Source of the DNA: a virus
IMG/VR virus record: IMGVR_UViG_3300036444_000046
Coordinates: 1 to 38,595 of that record
DNA: 38,595 nucleotides
Direction: 5' to 3' (one strand)
Of the stretch, positions 1 through 9,187 are shown in pieces (within the stretch, counting starts at the first letter, position 1; each line of letters begins with the position of its first letter). Below the pieces are notes generated by a model. The model did no database searches. It had not been told where the DNA came from and saw nothing but the letters and a program-made list of their open reading frames with translations. The position numbers and the translations under genes are program-made.

Positions 1-1053
1 GAAATGCTCATCGCCAAGGCCGCCCCGATGATATAGCTCCAGTGTTGCCTTTGCCCGCTCCAGCGCGCCCGCCGCCTTCTCTGAGGCGATGTCCTGCACT
101 GGCTGTGCTTTGGGCGCGGCGGCGATGGCGGCTTCAAGGGCATCGCAAATCGTGAGGATGTATTTCGGGTCAAGCCGCCATTGGGTGTTGGCCGCAAGCA
201 TTTCGTTCGCCGCCGCCCGAGCAATGCTGAGGGCTGGTTCCGCCTCCACCGCTCTCTCATCTGAGACGATGTCCTGCACTGGCTGTGCTTTGGGCGCGGC
301 GGCTGACTGCGGGCGAAGGGCAAGAATGCGATTGGCTTTTGACAGGGCCAGCTCCTGCGAGCTTTTGACCATGTCCTCTTCCCACTCATGCTCGCTTCGG
401 ATCAGCAGGAAGGAATGCGGATCGATGATTTTGGCGATATCTTCCGCCTCCACCGCTCTCTCATCTGAGGCGGTGACGGGGTAGACGGGCAAAGGCGAAT
501 GCTTGGGCTTTGCGGCTTGCTTGGCTCTGATCTGCTCAACCTTCGTCCAGATGCGCGCCAGTTCGGTTTCTCCAGCTACGTGCTTGTCGAGGCCGTGCGC
601 GAGGCAGTAGGCCGCGAGTGTGACCTCGACGCCGCCAACTTCCTGCGATGGCTCGCCTGCATCGCGAGACCACACGTAATCGCGCAGTGGCAGCACGCGA
701 GCTGGATCGTAGCCGCCCGATTGCAGTAGTTCGAAAACCTCCTCAAGGAGCCGGTCTCCTCGCTCGACGCGATCCGCGCTGATCTCTTCGCCGAAGCAAG
801 CCAGCATCCACGGCTGAACACGCTGCTGGAAGGTCTCCGCCACCGCCTGCGGCTCTATCGCTGCTAGGATGCGGGCTTCGTATTTCGCGATGGCGTCGAG
901 AGCACGATCAAGCTTGTCTTCGCCTTCCTCACGGGAACTTTCGTCTTGACCGTAGCCGGGCGTTTTCATCGCATGTTCGAAAACTGGCACCAGTTCGGAC
1001 AGGGCGGCATGGAGGCTCCCGGCCTGTGCGGCTATATCGGCGGTGTTAGGCAT
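1..1053 (-). CDS. MazG-like protein with C-terminal repeats (3' end outside window)
   Basis: I read an uninterrupted frame of 351 codons from an ATG at 1053 to the left edge with no stop, so the gene is 3'-truncated by the window. Residues about 95-155 resemble the all-alpha MazG-like nucleotide pyrophosphohydrolase fold: an EExxE motif in LLEEVFELLQ and, about 30 residues later, EVGGVEVTLAAYC at the place of the usual ExxD helix, with the Asp replaced by Gly. A catalytic role as a nucleotide pyrophosphohydrolase is therefore inference. After about residue 195 the protein becomes repetitive, with AAPKAQPVQDI and SDERAVEAE recurring every 60-68 residues and separated by variable segments, a layout like modular phage early proteins. 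The start overlaps the ssb stop by one base (TGATG), so translation is probably coupled. It is the most distal visible gene of the leftward early operon. Confidence is high that it is a gene and moderate for MazG. Confidence 0.72.
   Translation of the reverse strand, partial: MPNTADIAAQAGSLHAALSELVPVFEHAMKTPGYGQDESSREEGEDKLDRALDAIAKYEARILAAIEPQAVAETFQQRVQPWMLACFGEEISADRVERGDRLLEEVFELLQSGGYDPARVLPLRDYVWSRDAGEPSQEVGGVEVTLAAYCLAHGLDKHVAGETELARIWTKVEQIRAKQAAKPKHSPLPVYPVTASDERAVEAEDIAKIIDPHSFLLIRSEHEWEEDMVKSSQELALSKANRILALRPQSAAAPKAQPVQDIVSDERAVEAEPALSIARAAANEMLAANTQWRLDPKYILTICDALEAAIAAAPKAQPVQDIASEKAAGALERAKATLELYHRGGLGDEHF
80..303. repeat. 44-bp direct repeat pair, 180 bp apart
   Basis: Positions 80-123 and 260-303 are identical except for one base (86 versus 266). 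Both lie in the same reading frame of the minus-strand MazG-like gene and encode the APKAQPVQDI segment. The 180-bp period is a multiple of three, so unequal recombination between the copies would add or delete 60 residues without breaking the frame. Confidence 0.9.
238..469. repeat. 28-bp direct repeat pair, 204 bp apart
   Basis: Positions 238-265 and 442-469 are identical. They encode the SDERAVEAE segment of the minus-strand MazG-like protein. The pair interlocks with the 44-bp repeats at 80-123 and 260-303, so the C-terminal half of the gene consists of two degenerate repeat units. The 204-bp period also preserves the frame. Confidence 0.9.
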
Positions 1054-1592
1054 CACCCCCTCCATTCCGGAGCGAACGGGATTTCGTCATCCAGTTCCCG
1101 ATTGCCGCCGCCGAAGCTGCCGCCACCACCGCCGAACCGCGACTGCTGGTCGCGTGCGCGGTTCTCGATCTGGCGTCGCTGGTCGGCGTCGCGCGTTGTG
1201 CCGTAGTCTTCAGGATCGTCGGATGACGGCGGGCGATTGGACGCCTTTTCGAGGATCTGCAGTTCGCCCCGGAAACGGTTCAGGACCACTTCGGTCGAGT
1301 ATCGCTCGATCCCGTCCTGGCCGGTCCACTTGCGTGTCTGCTGCTGGCCTTCGATGTAGACCTTCATGCCCTTCTTCAGGTACTGCTCGGCGACCTTGGC
1401 GATCTGCTCGTTGAACACGACCACTGAATGCCATTCGGTGCGTTCCTTGCGCTCGCCGCTTTCCTTGTCCCGCCAGGTCTCGGACGTGGCGATGCGGAAC
1501 GACACGACAGGCTGATCCGACTGCGTGCGGCGCACGTCGGGCTCGGCACCGAGGTTGCCGACGAGAATGACTTTGTTGACTGATCCGGCCAT
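1053..1592 (-). CDS. ssb: Single-stranded DNA-binding protein
   Basis: This 179-residue protein opens with MAGSVNKVILVGNLGAEPDV, the canonical start of the bacterial SSB OB-fold, followed by the conserved SFRIATSE and EWHSVVVFN segments up to about residue 110. A Gly/Asn/Arg-rich linker (GGGGGSFGGGNRE) follows. It should coat single-stranded DNA at the phage replication fork and recruit partner proteins. The acidic protein-interaction tip DDEIPF is present, but six residues (APEWRG) follow it, whereas in most bacterial SSBs the tip is the C-terminus. The ATG at 1592 shares a base with the upstream gene's stop (TAATG), so no separate ribosome-binding site is needed. It lies in the leftward early operon with clamp and GapR genes, which supports a replication role. 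Confidence 0.95.
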   Translation of the reverse strand: MAGSVNKVILVGNLGAEPDVRRTQSDQPVVSFRIATSETWRDKESGERKERTEWHSVVVFNEQIAKVAEQYLKKGMKVYIEGQQQTRKWTGQDGIERYSTEVVLNRFRGELQILEKASNRPPSSDDPEDYGTTRDADQRRQIENRARDQQSRFGGGGGSFGGGNRELDDEIPFAPEWRG

Positions 1593-1837
1593 TACGGTTC
1601 GATCCCCATTGCGGTCAGGGTGGAATTGATGGTGGCGATCTGCTGGTCGAGTGAGGCTTTGACATCGCCGACGATGCCGCCGAGATAGGCGGTCGACAGT
1701 GACACGGCGCCGGCCGAAGCGCCGTCACCGACCATCAGTCGCACCGGCTCGCTGTCGAGGCGGGAGCGCATGGCCATGGCGGCCTTGCGTTCCTCGAATA
1801 GCTTCAGTGCGCGGTTGATGTCCTGATGGTTCAGCAT
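1592..1837 (-). CDS. Hypothetical protein (81 aa)
   Basis: I do not recognise this 81-residue protein. It starts [20 protein letters not shown] and is predicted mostly helical, with no membrane segment, cysteine cluster or signal peptide. Its stop overlaps the ssb start by one base and its ATG overlaps the stop of the GapR gene by one base (TGATG), so it is embedded in a translationally coupled chain between gapR and ssb. That position suggests an early DNA-metabolism accessory role, but this is inference from context only. Confidence that it is a real gene comes from the seamless overlaps on both sides. Confidence 0.7.
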   Translation of the reverse strand: MLNHQDINRALKLFEERKAAMAMRSRLDSEPVRLMVGDGASAGAVSLSTAYLGGIVGDVKASLDQQIATINSTLTAMGIEP

Positions 1838-2097
1838 CAGGCCATTCCCAATGCGGCCTTGTAGAGGTCGAGGATCGTTTCCTCTTCATGGCGTTCGGCC
1901 TGATCCTTCTTGCGGAGCCTGACCAACTGGCGGATGGCGGACACCTCAAAACCGGTCCCCTTCGCTTCCGCGTATACGTCCTTGATATCGTCGGCGATCG
2001 TCTTTTTTTCTTCCTCGAGACGCTCGATGCGTTCGATGAGAGCACGGAGCTGACCAGCAGCCACCGTCTGGCTGGTTTCGGTGATTTCGTCGGCCAT
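1837..2097 (-). CDS. gapR: GapR-family DNA-binding protein (DUF2312)
   Basis: This 86-residue protein carries the full DUF2312/GapR signature: [35 protein letters not shown], then [19 protein letters not shown] and [10 protein letters not shown]. In Caulobacter GapR is a nucleoid protein that binds overtwisted DNA, stimulates topoisomerases and is needed for replication; a phage copy may act at its own fork. I chose the ATG at 2097 rather than the longer frame to 2184 because MADEITE matches the family N-terminus and AGAAGGA lies at good spacing upstream. The frame above it lacks similarity and overlaps a palindromic repeat. The stop overlaps the next gene by one base. A truncated paralogue lies just upstream at 2174-2350. 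Confidence 0.93.
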
Positions 2098-2116
2098 TGT
2101 GTAATTCCTTCTGGAA

Positions 2117-2152
2117 GAAGGCGTGTCGCCTAAATCGAAGGCGTGTCGCCTA
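2117..2152. promoter_or_regulatory. Two 13-bp palindromes in 20-bp phase (candidate operator)
   Basis: The 16-bp sequence GAAGGCGTGTCGCCTA occurs twice, at 2117-2132 and 2137-2152. Each contains a perfect palindrome, AGGCG-TGT-CGCCT, at 2119-2131 and 2139-2151. The centres are exactly 20 bp apart, about two helical turns, so bound dimers would sit on the same DNA face. The pair lies between the truncated and intact GapR genes, about 20 bp before the intact gene's start codon. Its binding protein is unknown; it could also act as an RNA structure in the leader. Confidence 0.65.
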
Positions 2153-2173
2153 GTTAAGTACTTGATCCTATTA

Positions 2174-2350
2174 CTAGGCTGCAATCTTTAGGGAGGATAC
2201 GAAGCCGGTGCCCTTCGCCTCGGCGTAGACATCCTTGATGTCGTCACCGATGGTCTTCTTCTCTTCCTCCAGGCGCTCGATGCGCTCGATGAGTGCGCGC
2301 AGCTGGCCAGCGGCGACCGTCTGGCTGGTCTCGGTGATTTCGTCGGACAT
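2174..2350 (-). pseudogene. C-terminally truncated GapR/DUF2312 paralogue
   Basis: A 58-residue frame from ATG at 2350 to TAG at 2174-2176 begins [16 protein letters not shown] and matches the neighbouring GapR at about 48 of the first 50 residues, ending in AEAKGTGF. It then diverges into VSSLKIAA and stops, so the C-terminal helices of the family (about 35 residues) are missing. A proper AAGGAG ribosome-binding site precedes the ATG, 11 bp after the dnaN stop. Nucleotide differences from the intact copy are mostly synonymous third-position changes, so this is not a recent tandem duplication and the N-terminal part seems to have been under selection. It may be a decaying copy, or a functional short form made of the long coiled-coil helix. 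Confidence 0.8.
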
Positions 2351-2361
2351 GAAAAACTCCT

Positions 2362-3510
2362 TTAGAAGCGACGTGGGCCGATCAGGAAGGTCGCGCCTTC
2401 GCTGCCGACGACGTGGAAGAACCGGCCGATTTCGGGCGGCATGTGGATGGCGATTTCCTTAGACCGCGCGGCGTCGATCGCGTCGCGCAGGTAATGGGCG
2501 GCAAAGGCGACTTCGGAACCGGCCGGCGTCGAGCCGGTGTCGGCGTCCACCAGGTCTTCGGCGTCGCCATTGTCGCCGCGTCCGAAGAGTTCGATGGCGT
2601 CGTCGCGCACCGTCATCCTGATGGTTCGGATGGCTTCACGCTTGCCCTTGCCGTCCGTCTTCGGCGCGACAAGCAGGCCGTCGATCGCGCGCTGCATTGC
2701 CTCGGCCGAGACGCGAACGATGAGGTCGCTCAACTCCGGCAGCATGCCGGGATAGTCGAAGAAGGTGGCGTCGATAAGCTTCGAGACGATGCGAATGCGC
2801 TGGGCCTCGATCGTGATAGTGTTTTCGTTGCCGGAAACGGTGATGCCGCTTTCGTCGCCGCCGAAGATGCGCAGCACTTCCTTGACTGTCTTCGGCGGGA
2901 TGATCACGCCTGGCAGGCTGCCGTCGCGCGTCGGAAATTCGCCGGTCATCTCGGGATCGTCCATGTCGACGATATGGATGTGGTAGCCGTCCGCCGCGAT
3001 GACGCGCAGCTGGCCGTCGAATTGGTGCAGGAACGGGCCATGCAGCATGGTGCGGTTCAGGTCTGTGCTGACCGCCCTTTCGGTGCGGGACAGCACGTCG
3101 CACAACTCGTGCGCCAGCAGCTTGATTGACCAGCTTGCCTCGCGGCCATGCAGGTGCGGGAACATGTCGGCAGGCAGGATCGCCTGCGTGAGTCGCGCCT
3201 TGCCGTGACGGGCGGTGACGTTGCGCAGGTCCTCGTCGAATTCCAGCGTGCCGGTTTCGTCGCCCTTGCCGGCGCGCAGGATGAAGAATTCGAGGATCGA
3301 GCGCGGGATCGCGGTGCTGACCTCGGCGTCGGCTTTGCACTCGACGATGACGCGGGCCTCAACATCCATATCCGACATGGTCAATTTCAGCGAGGTCCGG
3401 TCGGCGTCGAGCAGGGCGTGGTCGAGGATCTCGAAATCCCTCGATCCGGCCGGCACGTTACGAATGGCCTTGGCTGCTTCGGCGAAGGCGGAAGCGTTGA
3501 AGGAGATCAT
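2362..3510 (-). CDS. dnaN: DNA polymerase III sliding clamp (beta subunit)
   Basis: The 382-residue product matches the bacterial beta clamp in length and layout. [18 protein letters not shown] corresponds to the first clamp helix, [12 protein letters not shown] to the central conserved strand (the family's ATDGHRL-like motif), and [20 protein letters not shown] to the start of the third domain. It should encircle DNA and tether a replicative polymerase. No phage polymerase is seen in the window, so it would be expected to work with the host polymerase III. The annotated frame could extend to 3630, but the ATG at 3510 is the family start and overlaps the upstream stop by four bases (ATGA). 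A chromosomal dnaN is always present in the host, so this is an accessory phage clamp. Confidence 0.93.
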
Positions 3511-3920
3511 AGCGAGAGGCTTCCCTGTCCGGAGTGAATTTGCGCCAGCATCTTGGCGGCGGCAGGCGACATGAAGCCTTGGTCTGGAACCATGGATTGG
3601 AGCAGGGCCAAGGCCTCGTCGACGCGGCATTCTGCTATGAGGCGCTGTAAGCGCTCGGCGTCTGTTCGGAAGTCACCGATCCAATCTGGCTCGTATTCTT
3701 CAGGCAACCGGCCGAGAGCATGTGCTCGCTCAACCATGAGGTCGAGAAGGATCGTCCCGCGTTCAGTCAGTTGCCACTCATCGTTGATGAGCTTTGCGGT
3801 GCGATCTTCGAGAGACTCGAGAAGCTCGCTTGCCGCAGTGCCGTTGACAAGCAAGGCAAACAGCTTCGCGCTTGCCACGCTGTCAAGAATATCGACGAAG
3901 TCGGTCGCGTTAACGCCCAT
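3507..3920 (-). CDS. Hypothetical protein (137 aa)
   Basis: I do not recognise this 137-residue protein. It begins MGVNATDFVDILDSVASAKL and contains WQLTERGTILLDLMVER, which has the look of a winged-helix or helical-bundle segment. The C-terminal part is helical and rich in Ala and Leu. There is no signal peptide or membrane segment. I placed the start at 3920 because GAGGAGG lies just upstream and the ATG overlaps the stop of the HD-domain gene by one base; the longer frame to 4130 is the antisense-like extension and is Arg/Pro-rich. The gene lies between the HD phosphohydrolase and the sliding clamp, so a role in replication is possible but unproven. Confidence 0.7.
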   Translation of the reverse strand: MGVNATDFVDILDSVASAKLFALLVNGTAASELLESLEDRTAKLINDEWQLTERGTILLDLMVERAHALGRLPEEYEPDWIGDFRTDAERLQRLIAECRVDEALALLQSMVPDQGFMSPAAAKMLAQIHSGQGSLSL

Positions 3921-4576
3921 CACATCCTCCTCGCGTTGGGGCAAAGCTGGTCGAGCCGGCGGCGGAATTCCTCGACCGCCTTGGCAACGGGCCATGCGGC
4001 GAGCTTGCCGCGCAGGCGGATAGGCTTGGCGGTTTCGACGCCACCGCCCCATTCGGCGGGCGGCGGCATCAGGAGATGGCGCCGCTCGGTGGCGAGCATG
4101 CGGATGTCGTATTCCTTGACGCGTTCCCAATAGGTTTTGCCGGGTTGCGGCAGGCCAGCGGCGCGCCAGATGGCCACGTCGAGCTTCGACTTGGCTACGG
4201 CAATCACAGTGCGGACGCGCTCGGTCGAGCCGAAGATGTCCAGTTCGATGCTGGCGAGCCAGTTCGCCACGGGCGTCGTCAGGTCGCCGATGATATATTC
4301 ATGCGCGTCGTGAAGCAGAAAATAGGCGGCAAGGTTCGCGTCGCCGGTCTCTTCCAATGCCGCGTCGGCGCCGACGACGCTGTGCTGGATAACCGAATAG
4401 GGATTGCCGGGAACGTGGCCGCCGAAGCGGCAGACGCGAGCCAGGCTTTCGGCGACATCACCGTAAAGGTCGATGTCGAGCGCCGAGAAAGCGGTGAGCG
4501 GGAAGGCGCGGCCGCTGATGGTCTGCTGCCACGGCTTGCTGTCGTCGATGGGGAAGGCGGAAGCGTGGACGGTCAT
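3920..4576 (-). CDS. HD-domain phosphohydrolase (YfbR-like nucleotidase)
   Basis: The 218-residue protein has the metal-binding pattern of the HD superfamily: His at about 65 in VIQHSVVGAD, the His-Asp pair at about 89-90 in FLLHDAHEY, and Asp at about 98 in IIGDLTTPV. Spacing and the HEYIIGDL-like string resemble YfbR-type 5'-deoxynucleotidases and related phage enzymes, which remove phosphate from deoxynucleoside monophosphates. The likely role is adjusting the nucleotide pool during phage replication; substrate is inference. The protein is cytosolic, with no signal or membrane segment. Both ends overlap neighbouring genes, by four bases upstream and one base downstream, so it belongs to the leftward early operon. 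Confidence 0.85.
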   Translation of the reverse strand: MTVHASAFPIDDSKPWQQTISGRAFPLTAFSALDIDLYGDVAESLARVCRFGGHVPGNPYSVIQHSVVGADAALEETGDANLAAYFLLHDAHEYIIGDLTTPVANWLASIELDIFGSTERVRTVIAVAKSKLDVAIWRAAGLPQPGKTYWERVKEYDIRMLATERRHLLMPPPAEWGGGVETAKPIRLRGKLAAWPVAKAVEEFRRRLDQLCPNARRM

Positions 4577-5163
4577 TGCGCCGGCCTCCCTTCGATCTTC
4601 TGTTGGGCGGCGAGCGCATAGACGACGCGGTTGCGCTCACGCTCCAGCAGGGGCAGGCGTGACAGGAACGCTTCAAGCAGCTTCAGGCAGCGTTCGCCTT
4701 GACTCACCCATGGATCGAGCTTCCAGGCGGCGCGCGCCGTGCAGTAGCGACGCCACGCCCCTGCGGCGATGTCCTCGTCCTCGGGATCAAGGCCTGCTGT
4801 TTTGGGCATGTTGTGCGAGGCGGCCGCCAGTGCCTTGGTGACGATGTCGGGCACACGGTCGCCGGGTGGATCGACGCGTCGCACCCAGCTTTCCGACACG
4901 ATCAACGTGGCGGACGGCAGATGCTCGACGATCTCGGCCATGGTGAAGCCGCGGCTGCGCAGTTCGGCTTCACTGGCGCCGCCGTCGGCGCCAGTGAGTT
5001 CGCGCAGCATGTCGGCTAACTCAACGGCACGATGGTGCAGCTTCTGTTCGCCGGCAGGATGATCGGGACGCACCTGACTGGACGCGCGGTGGCCGGGTTT
5101 GTCGGCGAGGCTGGAGGCGATGGGACGCGGCATGGCGCCGCCACTGCGGACATGTGTCAGCAT
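4573..5163 (-). CDS. Hypothetical protein (196 aa)
   Basis: I do not recognise this 196-residue protein. It starts MLTHVRSGGAMPRPIAS, has a basic, probably disordered N-terminus, then a mixed region with SRGFTMAEIVEHLPSATLIV, which looks like a helix-turn-helix-type segment near residues 70-90, and a helical C-terminus ending in a coiled LLERERNRVVYALAAQQK. No signal peptide or membrane segment is visible. The ATG at 5163 overlaps the stop of the small membrane-protein gene by one base (TGATG), and its own stop overlaps the HD-domain gene start by four bases. It is therefore one of the first genes of the leftward early operon. An internal ATG exists a few codons in, so the exact start is uncertain. 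Confidence 0.72.
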   Translation of the reverse strand: MLTHVRSGGAMPRPIASSLADKPGHRASSQVRPDHPAGEQKLHHRAVELADMLRELTGADGGASEAELRSRGFTMAEIVEHLPSATLIVSESWVRRVDPPGDRVPDIVTKALAAASHNMPKTAGLDPEDEDIAAGAWRRYCTARAAWKLDPWVSQGERCLKLLEAFLSRLPLLERERNRVVYALAAQQKIEGRPAQ

Positions 5164-5317: not shown

Positions 5318-5682
5318 GGAGGGGTTTATGCGTCGAGCGATAGCCGTTGCAGCCATTGTGCTGGCTGGAACTTGTGGCGGCACGTTGGCTGAAAGTCAGC
5401 GCGACATCGTTGCCAAGAAGTATGGGGACGCCATGGCAGCGGCTGAGGCCTGTCAAACTCTCAAATTCAACAGTTCGCGCGGTTCGCTCTACATCGTGGC
5501 CCTGGGTCTCAAGTTCGACGACAAGTTTCAGGCTATCGTCAAAAAACAGCGGGCCAAGGCGTTGGACGGGTTTCGGGAACGTTCCCAGATGGCTGTCTGC
5601 CAGGCCGGACTGTTTCTGTACGGTCCGGAGGGGACTGAAGCGCCCGGATTGCTGGAAGCTGAATGAGGACATAAACCCCTCC
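5318..5682. repeat. 13-bp inverted repeats flanking a secreted-protein gene
   Basis: GGAGGGGTTTATG at 5318-5330 and its exact reverse complement at 5670-5682 bracket the plus-strand gene 5328-5666. Each arm holds a Shine-Dalgarno and an ATG. Recombination between the arms would flip the 365-bp segment and place the secreted-protein gene behind the leftward promoter with its ribosome-binding site intact. Whether inversion occurs is not known. Confidence 0.8.
5328..5666 (+). CDS. Small secreted protein, probable moron
   Basis: The 112-residue product starts MRRAIAVAAIVLAGTCGGTLA, a clear Sec signal peptide with likely cleavage after Ala near residue 21, so the mature protein is periplasmic or secreted. 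The mature part contains two cysteines about 60 residues apart (AEACQTL and MAVCQAGLF) that could form a disulphide, and a C-terminal LYGPEGTEAPGLLE stretch. I do not know its function. GGAGGGG sits five bases before the ATG at 5328. It is transcribed against all its neighbours, between the leftward promoter and the leftward operon, which is typical of a moron (an accessory gene expressed from the prophage). No own promoter is obvious. A strong hairpin follows its stop. Its start and end are bracketed by 13-bp inverted repeats. Confidence 0.75.
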   Translation: MRRAIAVAAIVLAGTCGGTLAESQRDIVAKKYGDAMAAAEACQTLKFNSSRGSLYIVALGLKFDDKFQAIVKKQRAKALDGFRERSQMAVCQAGLFLYGPEGTEAPGLLEAE

Positions 5683-5700
5683 ATCGCGGTTTCGATGGAG
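5679..5700. terminator. 8-bp stem hairpin after the secreted-protein gene
   Basis: CTCCATCG at 5679-5686 pairs perfectly with CGATGGAG at 5693-5700 around a 6-base loop. It lies 12 bp after the stop of the plus-strand gene, where a terminator is expected, but no T-run follows on either strand. It also falls at the predicted 5' end of the leftward transcript, where it could fold over the ribosome-binding site. The function is uncertain. Confidence 0.4.
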
Positions 5701-5704
5701 CGGA

Positions 5705-5732
5705 ATTAAGTACGGAAATTATTCCGTGTCAA
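5705..5732 (-). promoter_or_regulatory. Leftward promoter PL
   Basis: On the minus strand a perfect -35 box TTGACA (5732-5727) is followed after 16 bp by CTTAAT (5710-5705, four of six matches to TATAAT). Operator-like sequence fills the spacer. Transcription would start near 5698 and run into the leftward early operon, passing first through the antisense of the secreted-protein gene. Confidence 0.65.
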
Positions 5733-5756
5733 TACGATGTAAGGAAATTATTCCGT
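5712..5756. promoter_or_regulatory. Left operators OL (two sites)
   Basis: Two near-identical 16-bp sites with dyad symmetry lie at 5712-5727 (ACGGAA-ATTA-TTCCGT) and 5741-5756 (AAGGAA-ATTA-TTCCGT), 29 bp apart. The first lies inside the PL spacer and the second overlaps the repressor stop codon. The same GGAA-N4-(T/A)TCC pattern recurs three times upstream of the repressor, so these are very probably repressor-binding sites. Confidence 0.75.
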
Positions 5757-6418
5757 CACGCCGTTTCGGCGTCTGAGGCGATTCGGTGGAGTTTGAGGAT
5801 GGCTCTTGCGGGGATTTCGATCTCCGCAGGCGGATTGAGTTTGCCGAGTTTGATCGTTTCTCCGCGCGTGTTGAGGTGTCCGATCATGGCTTCGGGGCCT
5901 ACCTCGGGATCTTTGATGAACTCGACCACTACGCTGTCGCCGATGCGAGGTGGAATGCCTGGGGTTACAAAGCGGATTGCGCCCGGCTTGTGCTCCGGCC
6001 ACATCGAATCGTTGATCACAACCAGCGCATAAACGCCGGTTTGTTTCTTTAGCCCTCGGGGCAGGGGTGCATAGCCTATAGCATTGTCAAACAGTTGGAT
6101 CGCCCCGTGGTCATGTGATCCTGCTGCTGTGGCCTTAATCTCCACTTCGTCAACGTTCGCCGATGAATGAGTCGCGCTGCTGTCTTCCACATTCCGGGGC
6201 GGCTGTTGTCCATCCGGTCCCGATATCAGCCACTGTTCCGTTGTCCTTAGAGCCTTCGCGAGCCCTGTCAGGCTGTCGCCACGGGGCAGACCTGCTCCTT
6301 CCTTGAGCATCTTGCCCACAGCATCGGGCGACAAGTCGGCCGCAAGGGAAGTTGCCCTAGCGGACAAATTCAGTTCAGCCATGCGGATTCGTACGCGCAT
6401 TTGGAAATCGGTTGGCAT
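5756..6418 (-). CDS. S24/LexA-like phage repressor
   Basis: This 220-residue protein has an N-terminal helix-turn-helix (NLSARATSLAADLSPDAV, about residues 17-34) and a C-terminal S24 peptidase fold. The nucleophile Ser is about residue 138 in INDSMWPEHKPG, GDSVVVEF follows, and Lys is near 190-193 in TIKLGKLNP. An Ala-Gly pair near residues 99-100 in the linker could be the self-cleavage site. It should repress PL and PR in the lysogen and be inactivated during the SOS response. The frame extends to an ATG at 6499, but I prefer 6418: it matches repressor N-termini, leaves the operators outside the gene, and lies seven bases after a TAAAAT box, implying a leaderless mRNA. No Shine-Dalgarno precedes either start. 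Confidence 0.9.
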   Translation of the reverse strand: MPTDFQMRVRIRMAELNLSARATSLAADLSPDAVGKMLKEGAGLPRGDSLTGLAKALRTTEQWLISGPDGQQPPRNVEDSSATHSSANVDEVEIKATAAGSHDHGAIQLFDNAIGYAPLPRGLKKQTGVYALVVINDSMWPEHKPGAIRFVTPGIPPRIGDSVVVEFIKDPEVGPEAMIGHLNTRGETIKLGKLNPPAEIEIPARAILKLHRIASDAETA

Positions 6419-6422
6419 GTGA

Positions 6423-6493
6423 GGAATTTTATCCGCAAATCGGTTTTCTGTATCGCGGAAAACAATCCGTTGACGATAAGGAAAAAGTTCCGT
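6423..6493. promoter_or_regulatory. Right operators OR (three sites)
   Basis: Three matches to the operator pattern GGAA-N4-(T/A)TCC lie between the repressor and the Cro-like gene: 6423-6434 (GGAA-TTTT-ATCC), 6456-6470 (CGGAA-AACA-ATCCGT) and 6478-6493 (AAGGAA-AAAG-TTCCGT). The third lies in the spacer of the rightward promoter. The first overlaps the -10 box of the repressor's own promoter, which would allow negative autoregulation. The symmetry is less perfect than in the OL sites. Confidence 0.65.
6426..6454 (-). promoter_or_regulatory. Repressor promoter (PRM-like)
   Basis: On the minus strand TAAAAT (6431-6426) lies seven bases before the ATG at 6418, with a weak -35 match GATACA (6454-6449) 17 bp further up. 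The start of transcription would coincide with the start codon, so the repressor mRNA would be leaderless, as is the case for Lambda cI from PRM. The weak -35 box would fit a promoter needing activation. Confidence 0.45.
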
Positions 6494-6498
6494 ATCCA
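6470..6498 (+). promoter_or_regulatory. Rightward promoter PR
   Basis: TTGACG (6470-6475), a 17-bp spacer and TATCCA (6493-6498) form a good sigma-70 promoter. An operator site fills the spacer, the same arrangement as in PL. The expected transcription start, about seven bases after the -10 box, falls on the ATG at 6505, so the first gene of the rightward operon may be translated from a leaderless mRNA. Confidence 0.65.
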
Positions 6499-6504
6499 TA
6501 ATGC

Positions 6505-6807
6505 ATGAACCTGAAACAGCAGCTTGTCGTGGTGGGTGACGTCTATGCCGGCGCGGTCGGCCTTAGCCGTGCGCGTATCTCAACGATCGTTCTCAATCGC
6601 GGTGCAACACTGAGTGCAATTGCAGAAGGTCGCGCCGACGTAACAACTTCGACTTTCGAAGCTGCCATGCAGTGGTTCTCCAACAATTGGCCCGCACCTC
6701 TCCCTTGGCCTGAAGCTATCATTCGGCCTGAGCCGCAGCGGCCCGCCACCTTTGACCCTGACCACATCGCCGCCTTGCGGTTTCCTGCACAGGAGGCGGC
6801 GGAATGA
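6505..6807 (+). CDS. Cro-like regulator (putative)
   Basis: The 100-residue product is divergent from the repressor and is the first gene of the rightward operon, the position of cro in lambdoid phages. Its middle (VGLSRARISTIVLNRGATLSAIAEG, written here in part as residues about 18-42) reads like a helix-turn-helix, followed by a helix with the pattern FEAAMQWFSNNWPA that I have seen in similar small proteins next to rhizobial prophage repressors. DNA binding is inference. No Shine-Dalgarno precedes the ATG at 6505; another ATG at 6501 is out of frame. The predicted PR start of transcription falls on this ATG. The C-terminus is Pro-rich and probably disordered. Confidence 0.7.
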   Translation: MNLKQQLVVVGDVYAGAVGLSRARISTIVLNRGATLSAIAEGRADVTTSTFEAAMQWFSNNWPAPLPWPEAIIRPEPQRPATFDPDHIAALRFPAQEAAE

Positions 6808-6939: not shown

Positions 6940-7437
6940 ATGACCGCCGCCAATGCAGACCAGCGACACTATCGCATCAAGGCAGCCCAACGCGACCTGA
7001 TCGCCGCCTGCGGTGGCATCCAGCGTGCCGCCGTTATCGTCGCCTTCTCCGATGCGCAGGTCGGCCGGTGGAACAACGGCGCACAGCCGGACATGATGCC
7101 GGTGCATGTCGCGCTGGCGCTCGAAGGCGAGTGCGGCATGCCCCTGGTAACTTCGGCGATGGCGTCGCTGAACAACCGCCGTCTGGCCGATCCGGATGGT
7201 GCCGTCGAGGCGGCAAACTCGGTTACGCGCTCCTACACCGATGTCGTTCGCCAGATCGGCGAGGTCATGACCGCCGCCGCCCTGCATCTGTCTGATGGCC
7301 AGATCACGCCCGCCGAGGCCAACGAGCAGGACAAGCTGATGGCGCATCTGGAACGCGCCATCGCCGATCACCGCAAGTCGCTTGCCCAGGTCAAGGCGGT
7401 TGGCGGCTTCACGGTGGTGCACGGGGGCGCGGCATGA
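6940..7437 (+). CDS. Putative DNA-binding regulator (CII-like position)
   Basis: This 165-residue protein has an N-terminal segment, RDLIAACGGIQRAA followed by FSDAQVGRWNN (about residues 18-46), that matches helix-turn-helix proteins where the second helix carries SxxxVGRWxN. The rest is helical, including a long C-terminal helix (KLMAHLERAIADHRKSLAQV). It follows the Cro-like gene, the place of cII in lambdoid phages, so a role in the lysis-lysogeny decision is a reasonable inference; I do not recognise the family precisely. GGGAG lies nine bases before the ATG. Its stop overlaps the start of the next gene by four bases (ATGA). Confidence 0.65.
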   Translation: MTAANADQRHYRIKAAQRDLIAACGGIQRAAVIVAFSDAQVGRWNNGAQPDMMPVHVALALEGECGMPLVTSAMASLNNRRLADPDGAVEAANSVTRSYTDVVRQIGEVMTAAALHLSDGQITPAEANEQDKLMAHLERAIADHRKSLAQVKAVGGFTVVHGGAA

Positions 7438-8024: not shown

Positions 8025-9187
8025 TCCCCGCCGAGACCGTCGCGCAGGCGCATGCCGCTTCCATCCTGGCCACCGCCTATCTGTGCGGCTCCACGTCCAA
8101 GACCTTGCTGCGCAGGGGTAGCGAATTGAATGGTCCGTGCCCCGCCTGCGGCGGGCGTGACCGCTTCTGGCTGAACGAAGCCGGGAACGTGTTCCTGTGC
8201 CGCGCTTCGGGCGAGGGCGGTGATGCGATCGTGCTGATCCGCCACAAGCATGGATGCAGCTTCGCCGAGGCCGTCGAGATGCTGACCGGCGAGCGGCCGG
8301 TTCCGGCCGCAACGCACGCGCCTGTCTCGAAGAACGAAGACAACAAGTTCCGTGAATGGGCGCGGAAGGATGCCTGGGACATCTGGCAATCGGGAAGACC
8401 GACCGACCCGTCGCGCGGCGGTCATCTCGTCGTTCGATACCTCGCTATTCGGGGCGTCGCCATGCCGGACTGGCACATCAGGGCGCTGCGGGAGGTCGAC
8501 AATCTTGCCTATTGGCACAAGCGCGCAAGCGACCAGCACAGCACGATCATCCATCGCGGCCCTGCCATGCTGGCGGCGATCACCGGGCCGGATGGCCGGT
8601 TCATCGGCGTGCATCGCACATGGCTCGACCTGTCGCGACCGAACGGCAAGGCGGTCATCGCCGACCCCGATACCGGGGAGGTTCTTGACGCCAAGAAGGT
8701 GAAGGGCACGCAGCGCGGTGGCAGGATCGTCCTGCGCGACGGAGAACCCGGTGCCGGCCTGACGATAGGGGAGGGCATCGAGACGGTGTTTTCGTGGCGC
8801 GAGCTGCGCGAAGACACGACCTCGGCGCTGTGGTGCGGCATCAATCTCGACAATATCTCGGGCAAAGCCCTCGGCCAGATCCCGCACCCTTCACTCACCG
8901 TCAAAGACACGCTTGGCCGGGTGCGCAAGGCGAAGGTCGGCAGCCATGAGCCGGACCTAACCGATGCGCGTTGTCTGACGCTGCCGGCCGGCGTCTTTGG
9001 TCGCCTGACACTCATCGGCGACGGCGACAGCGACCGTTTCTCCACGCAGGCTGCCATGCTGCGCGCTCGCAAGCGCCACGCGCTGACCGTGCCGGATTGC
9101 CTGATCGACTGGGCCGATGACGGCCTGGACTTCAACGACATGCTGCGGCGGTTGCGTGAGCGCCGGCCGGCGAGGGCGGTGGCGTGA
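8021..9187 (+). CDS. DNA primase with zinc-finger and Toprim domains
   Basis: The 388-residue protein begins with a CHC2-type zinc-binding region: CPACGGRDRFWL and VFLCRASGEGGDAI (Cys about 40, 43 and 60). The usual fourth ligand, found in FxCxxCG, is replaced, so only three Cys are visible. The C-terminal half has Toprim-like motifs, LTIGEGIETVFSW (catalytic Glu) and LTLIGDGDSDR (Asp-x-Asp). It should make RNA primers for phage replication. I chose the ATG at 8021, which overlaps the previous stop by four bases; the longer frame from 7862 is a shadow of the preceding gene. A second primase-helicase lies at 12578-14335, so labour may be divided between them. Confidence 0.85.
   Translation: MIPAETVAQAHAASILATAYLCGSTSKTLLRRGSELNGPCPACGGRDRFWLNEAGNVFLCRASGEGGDAIVLIRHKHGCSFAEAVEMLTGERPVPAATHAPVSKNEDNKFREWARKDAWDIWQSGRPTDPSRGGHLVVRYLAIRGVAMPDWHIRALREVDNLAYWHKRASDQHSTIIHRGPAMLAAITGPDGRFIGVHRTWLDLSRPNGKAVIADPDTGEVLDAKKVKGTQRGGRIVLRDGEPGAGLTIGEGIETVFSWRELREDTTSALWCGINLDNISGKALGQIPHPSLTVKDTLGRVRKAKVGSHEPDLTDARCLTLPAGVFGRLTLIGDGDSDRFSTQAAMLRARKRHALTVPDCLIDWADDGLDFNDMLRRLRERRPARAVA

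Follow-up and report, generated by a model that had tools for sequence, protein, structure and literature searches.

The window, a linear virus record of 38,595 bp (IMGVR_UViG_3300036444_000046) analysed over its whole length, carries a CI/LexA-type repressor gene set between a leftward and a rightward operon. The genes and predicted regulatory features of the locus are the following.

1–5163, − strand: leftward operon from PL (predicted), with a first gene without family match, then dNMP phosphatase-like, beta clamp, SSB and other genes
5679–5700, − strand: hairpin CTCCATCG...CGATGGAG, where the PL transcript is predicted to begin
5705–5732, − strand: predicted promoter PL (TTGACA 5732–5727, 16 bp, CTTAAT 5710–5705), which would drive the leftward operon
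5712–5727: predicted left operator distal from the repressor (ACGGAAATTATTCCGT), in the PL spacer, with an equivalent in about 25 relatives
5741–5756: predicted left operator proximal to the repressor (AAGGAAATTATTCCGT), located 5′ of the PL −35 box, its end reaching the repressor stop codon
5756–6418, − strand: repressor of 220 aa, with an HTH, a linker and an S24 peptidase-fold C-terminal domain
6421–6436: predicted right operator 3 (GAGGAATTTTATCCGC), which holds the PRM −10 box and lies at −10 from the ATG across relatives
6426–6431, − strand: predicted PRM −10 box TAAAAT, 7 nt 5′ of the repressor ATG
6455–6470: predicted right operator 2 (GCGGAAAACAATCCGT), adjoining the PR −35 box
6470–6498, + strand: predicted promoter PR (TTGACG 6470–6475, 17 bp, TATCCA 6493–6498)
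6478–6493: predicted right operator 1 (AAGGAAAAAGTTCCGT), within the PR spacer
6505–6807, + strand: Cro-position gene (PHROG_7669, a family without assigned function, 5.2e-26), divergent from the repressor in 50 examined loci
6940–7437, + strand: CII-like activator (PHROG_101, 1.1e-18)

Rightward, the Cro-position and CII-like genes are followed by primase, helicase and then virion genes from a gpA-type terminase onward. Two viral contigs and a Mesorhizobium sp. 1M-11 prophage encode repressors 89% identical to that of the window, and each of the three has the five sites too. The leftward operon of the 1M-11 prophage runs on into genes for an HNH nuclease and an integrase. A nucleotide search of the region against phage records gave no match. 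Since so close a repressor resides in Mesorhizobium sp. 1M-11, the host is taken to be Mesorhizobium-like, and the repressor locus is very probably the immunity region of a temperate phage that infects such bacteria. A small gene at 5328–5666 (+), with a leader-peptide-like N-terminus and no family match, is convergent to the repressor and crosses the path of the PL transcript; Aurantimonas phage AmM-1 has another gene in that slot.

The overall architecture of the repressor comprises an HTH at residues ~4–66 and an S24-fold C-terminal domain at ~90–216. It matches PHROG_4 (9e-13) and Pfam S24 (PF00717, 26.2 bits against a cutoff of 23.3). For the AF2 model (mean pLDDT 86.7) the best Foldseek match is intact lambda repressor (3bdn), and the C-terminal domain superposes with Z 12.7 on the lambda CI C-terminal domain (8gmu) and 12.6 on LexA. 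The gene starts at ATG 6418; a longer open reading frame from 6499 was rejected because it reads through all three right operators and relatives begin at the ATG equivalent to 6418.

The catalytic residue Ser138 and the Ala99–Gly100 cleavage site are both present in this repressor. Gly180 occupies the position of LexA K156 and CI K192, so that the catalytic lysine is missing there, and Lys193 aligns with CI Pro205. In the profile alignment, the lysine of the family motif 'yik' falls on K192 of lambda FTFK, and the Gln/Lys that precedes LNP in the family falls on the Pro of lambda PLNP, which belongs to the Omega subzone of the active site (PMC12984324). Among 147 aligned repressors, two of them truncated, residue 193 is Gln, Ser, Glu, Ala or a gap, and never Lys, in the 98 that have Lys180, while it is Lys in all 46 that have Gly or Ala at 180, the window repressor included. 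The remaining three are the two truncated sequences and one Arg180/Gln193 protein, the only full-length exception to both states. The sources of all 46 Lys193 repressors are genomes of Hyphomicrobiales, phages of these bacteria, or viral contigs without assignment. In the model, predicted strands 176–185 and 188–194 pair residue 180 directly with residue 193; in a control repressor (L060), strands 181–190 and 194–199 pair Lys185 with Gln199. The new lysine position appears, from this modelled strand pairing, to lie on the same β-hairpin as the place of LexA K156 and CI K192. The tree of the Lys193 state is poorly resolved, with a single clade not rejected (p-AU 0.33) and a shortest count of six changes. 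One origin is compatible with this tree, and the state may thus reflect a single event strictly kept, not many independent ones.

We lean towards the reading that a clade of Hyphomicrobiales phage repressors moved the general-base lysine to the cross-strand neighbour 193, keeping self-cleavage and SOS induction. A rather less probable reading is that the S24 domain is a dead peptidase and that lysogeny is ended by an antirepressor instead of by self-cleavage: Gly180 does align with lambda Lys192, and in phage 186 the CI repressor is known to have the S24 fold yet to lack an active site (PMC12984324). A dead domain would, however, be expected to drift, and among the 46 Gly/Ala180 repressors Lys193 is accompanied by Ser138 in every case and by the Ala-Gly cleavage site in 41. 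If the displaced lysine is active, it would be a natural test of how the active site of a Ser-Lys peptidase can be rewired without losing its activation by RecA. A literature search of incomplete coverage found no report of a displaced lysine in LexA-like repressors.

The promoters PL and PR had been read in the earlier note with 16-bp and 17-bp spacers, each enclosing one operator; both spacings hold, with one dyad in either spacer. Their −10 boxes are weak matches, and PL has an alternative −10 box, TTAATT, with a spacer of 17 bp. In most two-sided relatives, PL has its TTGAC at the same position with respect to the operator, and in nearly all relatives the TTGAC of PR keeps its place before the cro-like ATG. 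The position of the PRM −10 box is occupied in relatives by TAGAAT, TATAAT, GATAAT or TATGTT, 6–8 nt 5′ of the repressor ATG. Likewise, the Cro-position ATG lies 7 nt past the PR −10 box here and 6–9 nt past it overall, such that in about 45 loci both genes begin 6–9 nt past a −10 box. Both divergent reading frames therefore start at about the expected transcription start, and both mRNAs are predicted to be leaderless or nearly so; on this spacing, repressor and Cro-position transcripts are probably both leaderless. The lambda cI mRNA is leaderless as well. The hairpin at 5679–5700 is followed by no T-run and is thus not an obvious terminator; it could be a leader control element. Hairpins of differing sequence stand at the equivalent place in L007, L061, L062, L064, L089, L091 and L106, and the PL-leader hairpins of some relatives end in GGAG close to a start codon.

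A pattern search of the window places GGAA-N4-WTCC matches at 5714, 5743, 6423, 6457 and 6480. All five sites that the earlier note had described, two behind the repressor gene and three in front of it, are present. The window as a whole holds 10 strand-matches against 2.4 ± 1.8 expected, a number reached in none of 100 shuffles, and when a flanking G is added (GGAANNNNWTCCG) the matches in the whole 38,595-bp record are the five repressor-flanking sites only. The fuller description of the operator is a 16-bp dyad, (A/G)CGGAAN4TTCCG(T/C), with centres at 5719.5 and 5748.5 on the left, 29 bp apart, and at 6428.5, 6462.5 and 6485.5 on the right; left and right operators are separated by 680–766 bp. 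A weight matrix was built from 23 distinct sites taken only from relatives (L009–L054) whose repressors are 36–40% identical to the window's. The five window sites are its top five matches in the 38.6-kb contig, scoring 20.4 to 14.0, and the sixth-best score is 10.2; in 200 Markov-1 sequences the fifth-best match had a mean of 8.8 and a maximum of 12.2. The sequence GGAACGTGTTCC at 8184 lies within the primase gene and outside the 14 best matrix matches, and was taken as a chance occurrence. In the host genome, the loose pattern occurs 173 times in the 6.7 Mb of Mesorhizobium sp. 1M-11, against 279 for a backward control, and pattern density in the host was dropped as proof since this is background; the 1M-11 prophage, on the other hand, holds the same five sites in a cluster. 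What is decisive for the predicted operators is only the clustering of the sites together with the relatives' matrix.

In 80 loci, the flanks of the repressor gene were searched for a dyad of whatever sequence that recurs on both sides. The two-sided layout, with at least two sites upstream and two downstream, emerged in about 25 of these related phages and prophages, each scoring above all 40 dinucleotide shuffles of its own flanks. The upstream centres are constant at −67, −44 and −10 from the repressor ATG, despite changes in both the sites and the recognition helix, and the distance to the divergent ATG is 85–91 bp in nearly all relatives; left sites are spaced by 26–30 bp, with one case of 38. 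Only upstream sites were found in L092, L096, L098, L099, L105 and L113, and the left cluster is thus not universal. Most wider class-level matches do not show the cassette geometry, which therefore belongs to a subgroup.

Within the half-site, the outer CG is mostly invariant and the inner bases vary (GAA, GTC/GAC, TAT, GGT, GTT, GCA, GGCC). These inner bases go with the recognition helix: ERSYFRKLF-like helices occur with GTC/GAC, AKETLRKIL-like helices with TAT, and S(K/R)(D/E)xLRKLL-like helices, such as SKDTLRKLL, with GAA. The tree of the C-terminal domain places differing motifs inside one group (L056, L059 and L102 among GAA types), and joint changes of helix and operators are thus more frequent than changes of the C-terminal domain. 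This covariation argues more strongly than any other evidence for the linked repressor as the protein that would read these predicted sites.

Comparison with known systems helps to place the locus. In Rhizobium phage 16-3 (NC_011103), OL1/OL2, OR1/OR2, PL, PR and Pc are annotated around the C gene; as in the window, the host is alphaproteobacterial and the repressor is flanked by its own operators, which overlap PL and PR; in 16-3 the left and right sites are 0.85–0.9 kb apart. By that annotation, the two-sided circuit has a precedent among alphaproteobacterial phages and is not new in kind. The C-terminal domain of the 16-3 C repressor is 35% identical over 129 aa to that of the relative L009 (2e-18). 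In contrast, its half-sites are of the ACAA type, its annotated operators number four (2+2) rather than five, its N-terminal domain has no detectable similarity to the window repressor, and it carries the canonical Lys at 180 with Gln at 193. With lambda the window shares operators over PL and PR on both sides, a repressor with an HTH and an S24-fold C-terminal domain, the Cro-position and CII-like genes rightward and, as a prediction, the leaderless repressor mRNA; the 1M-11 prophage further shares with lambda a left operon whose far end holds the integrase. It differs from lambda in having three right and two left operators in place of 3+3, in a left-right distance of 0.7 kb versus 2.3 kb, in a Cro-position gene that is also predicted to be leaderless and in the displaced catalytic lysine, and no N-like antiterminator gene was recognised. 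Two cultured phages, Aurantimonas phage AmM-1 and Rhizobium phage RR1-A, belong to the same subfamily (Gly180/Lys193) and have the same cassette geometry and two-sided operators, with the inner half-site GGC/GGCC in AmM-1 and TAT in RR1-A. AmM-1 also shares the gene order of Cro-position gene, CII-like gene and primase.

We consider it highly likely, from the sequence comparisons above, that the locus encodes a lambda-like OL-cI-OR circuit with two left and three right predicted operators. The proposal of the earlier note, a two-sided circuit with a distinct operator in an alphaproteobacterial phage, is supported by the sites, their conserved layout, the joint change of motif and helix, and the 16-3 precedent. 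In the lysogen, the repressor would occupy all five operators. From the PL spacer it would turn off the leftward operon of replication, recombination and integration genes, and from the PR spacer the rightward operon of Cro-position, CII and replication genes. At the site that holds the PRM −10 box, it would limit the repressor's own synthesis, while the middle right site, centred at about −44 from the PRM start, could activate PRM; its placement resembles that of lambda OR2. Induction would probably proceed through self-cleavage at Ala99–Gly100 by Ser138, with Lys193 replacing the canonical lysine.

Whether such a circuit would loop, the left and right clusters being joined through a repressor octamer as in lambda, is a more tentative matter. 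Sites on both sides at the separation given above and a C-terminal domain with the lambda CI fold are consistent with looping, but the distances vary among relatives (in AmM-1 the left pair lies 548–577 bp past the repressor stop, beyond an additional gene) and some relatives have no left sites, so that looping is not obligatory in this repressor family; we regard it as possible but doubtful. The same one-sided relatives could suggest that only the right cluster regulates and that the left pair is a remnant, or serves the Cro-position protein or another regulator. This is improbable, as here the left pair has the best conserved sequence and lies in a promoter spacer with TTGAC, and as the left sites of all two-sided relatives change motif in step with their own repressor. 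That the dyads, palindromic and intergenic as they are, serve as transcription-terminator or recombination sites is very improbable, given that no T-run follows them, that dyads lie inside promoter spacers, and that their number and spacing are fixed while their inner bases covary with the recognition helix.

With the two-sided circuit as the preferred reading, predicted operators, promoters and start sites are now available for rhizobial prophages of a widespread group. In 2025, a survey of phiLM21-like prophages of Sinorhizobium looked for lambda or 16-3 operators, detected none and suggested a partial loss of regulation (PMC12429752); divergent operators like those of the window offer an alternative for these prophages, if such a repressor is present. 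In addition, the collected repressors and their operators, constant in geometry but variable in a three-base specificity, would constitute a ready recognition code.

An annotated tRNA gene lies directly 3′ of the Cro-position gene in RR1-A (L115, 3543–3619) and in Agrobacterium phage Rivra (L118, 2049–2124). In the viral contig IMGVR_UViG_3300048850_000056 the repressor region occurs twice (L009 and L010), the copies lying about 39 kb from each other and differing slightly in their operators; they are perhaps tandem prophages.
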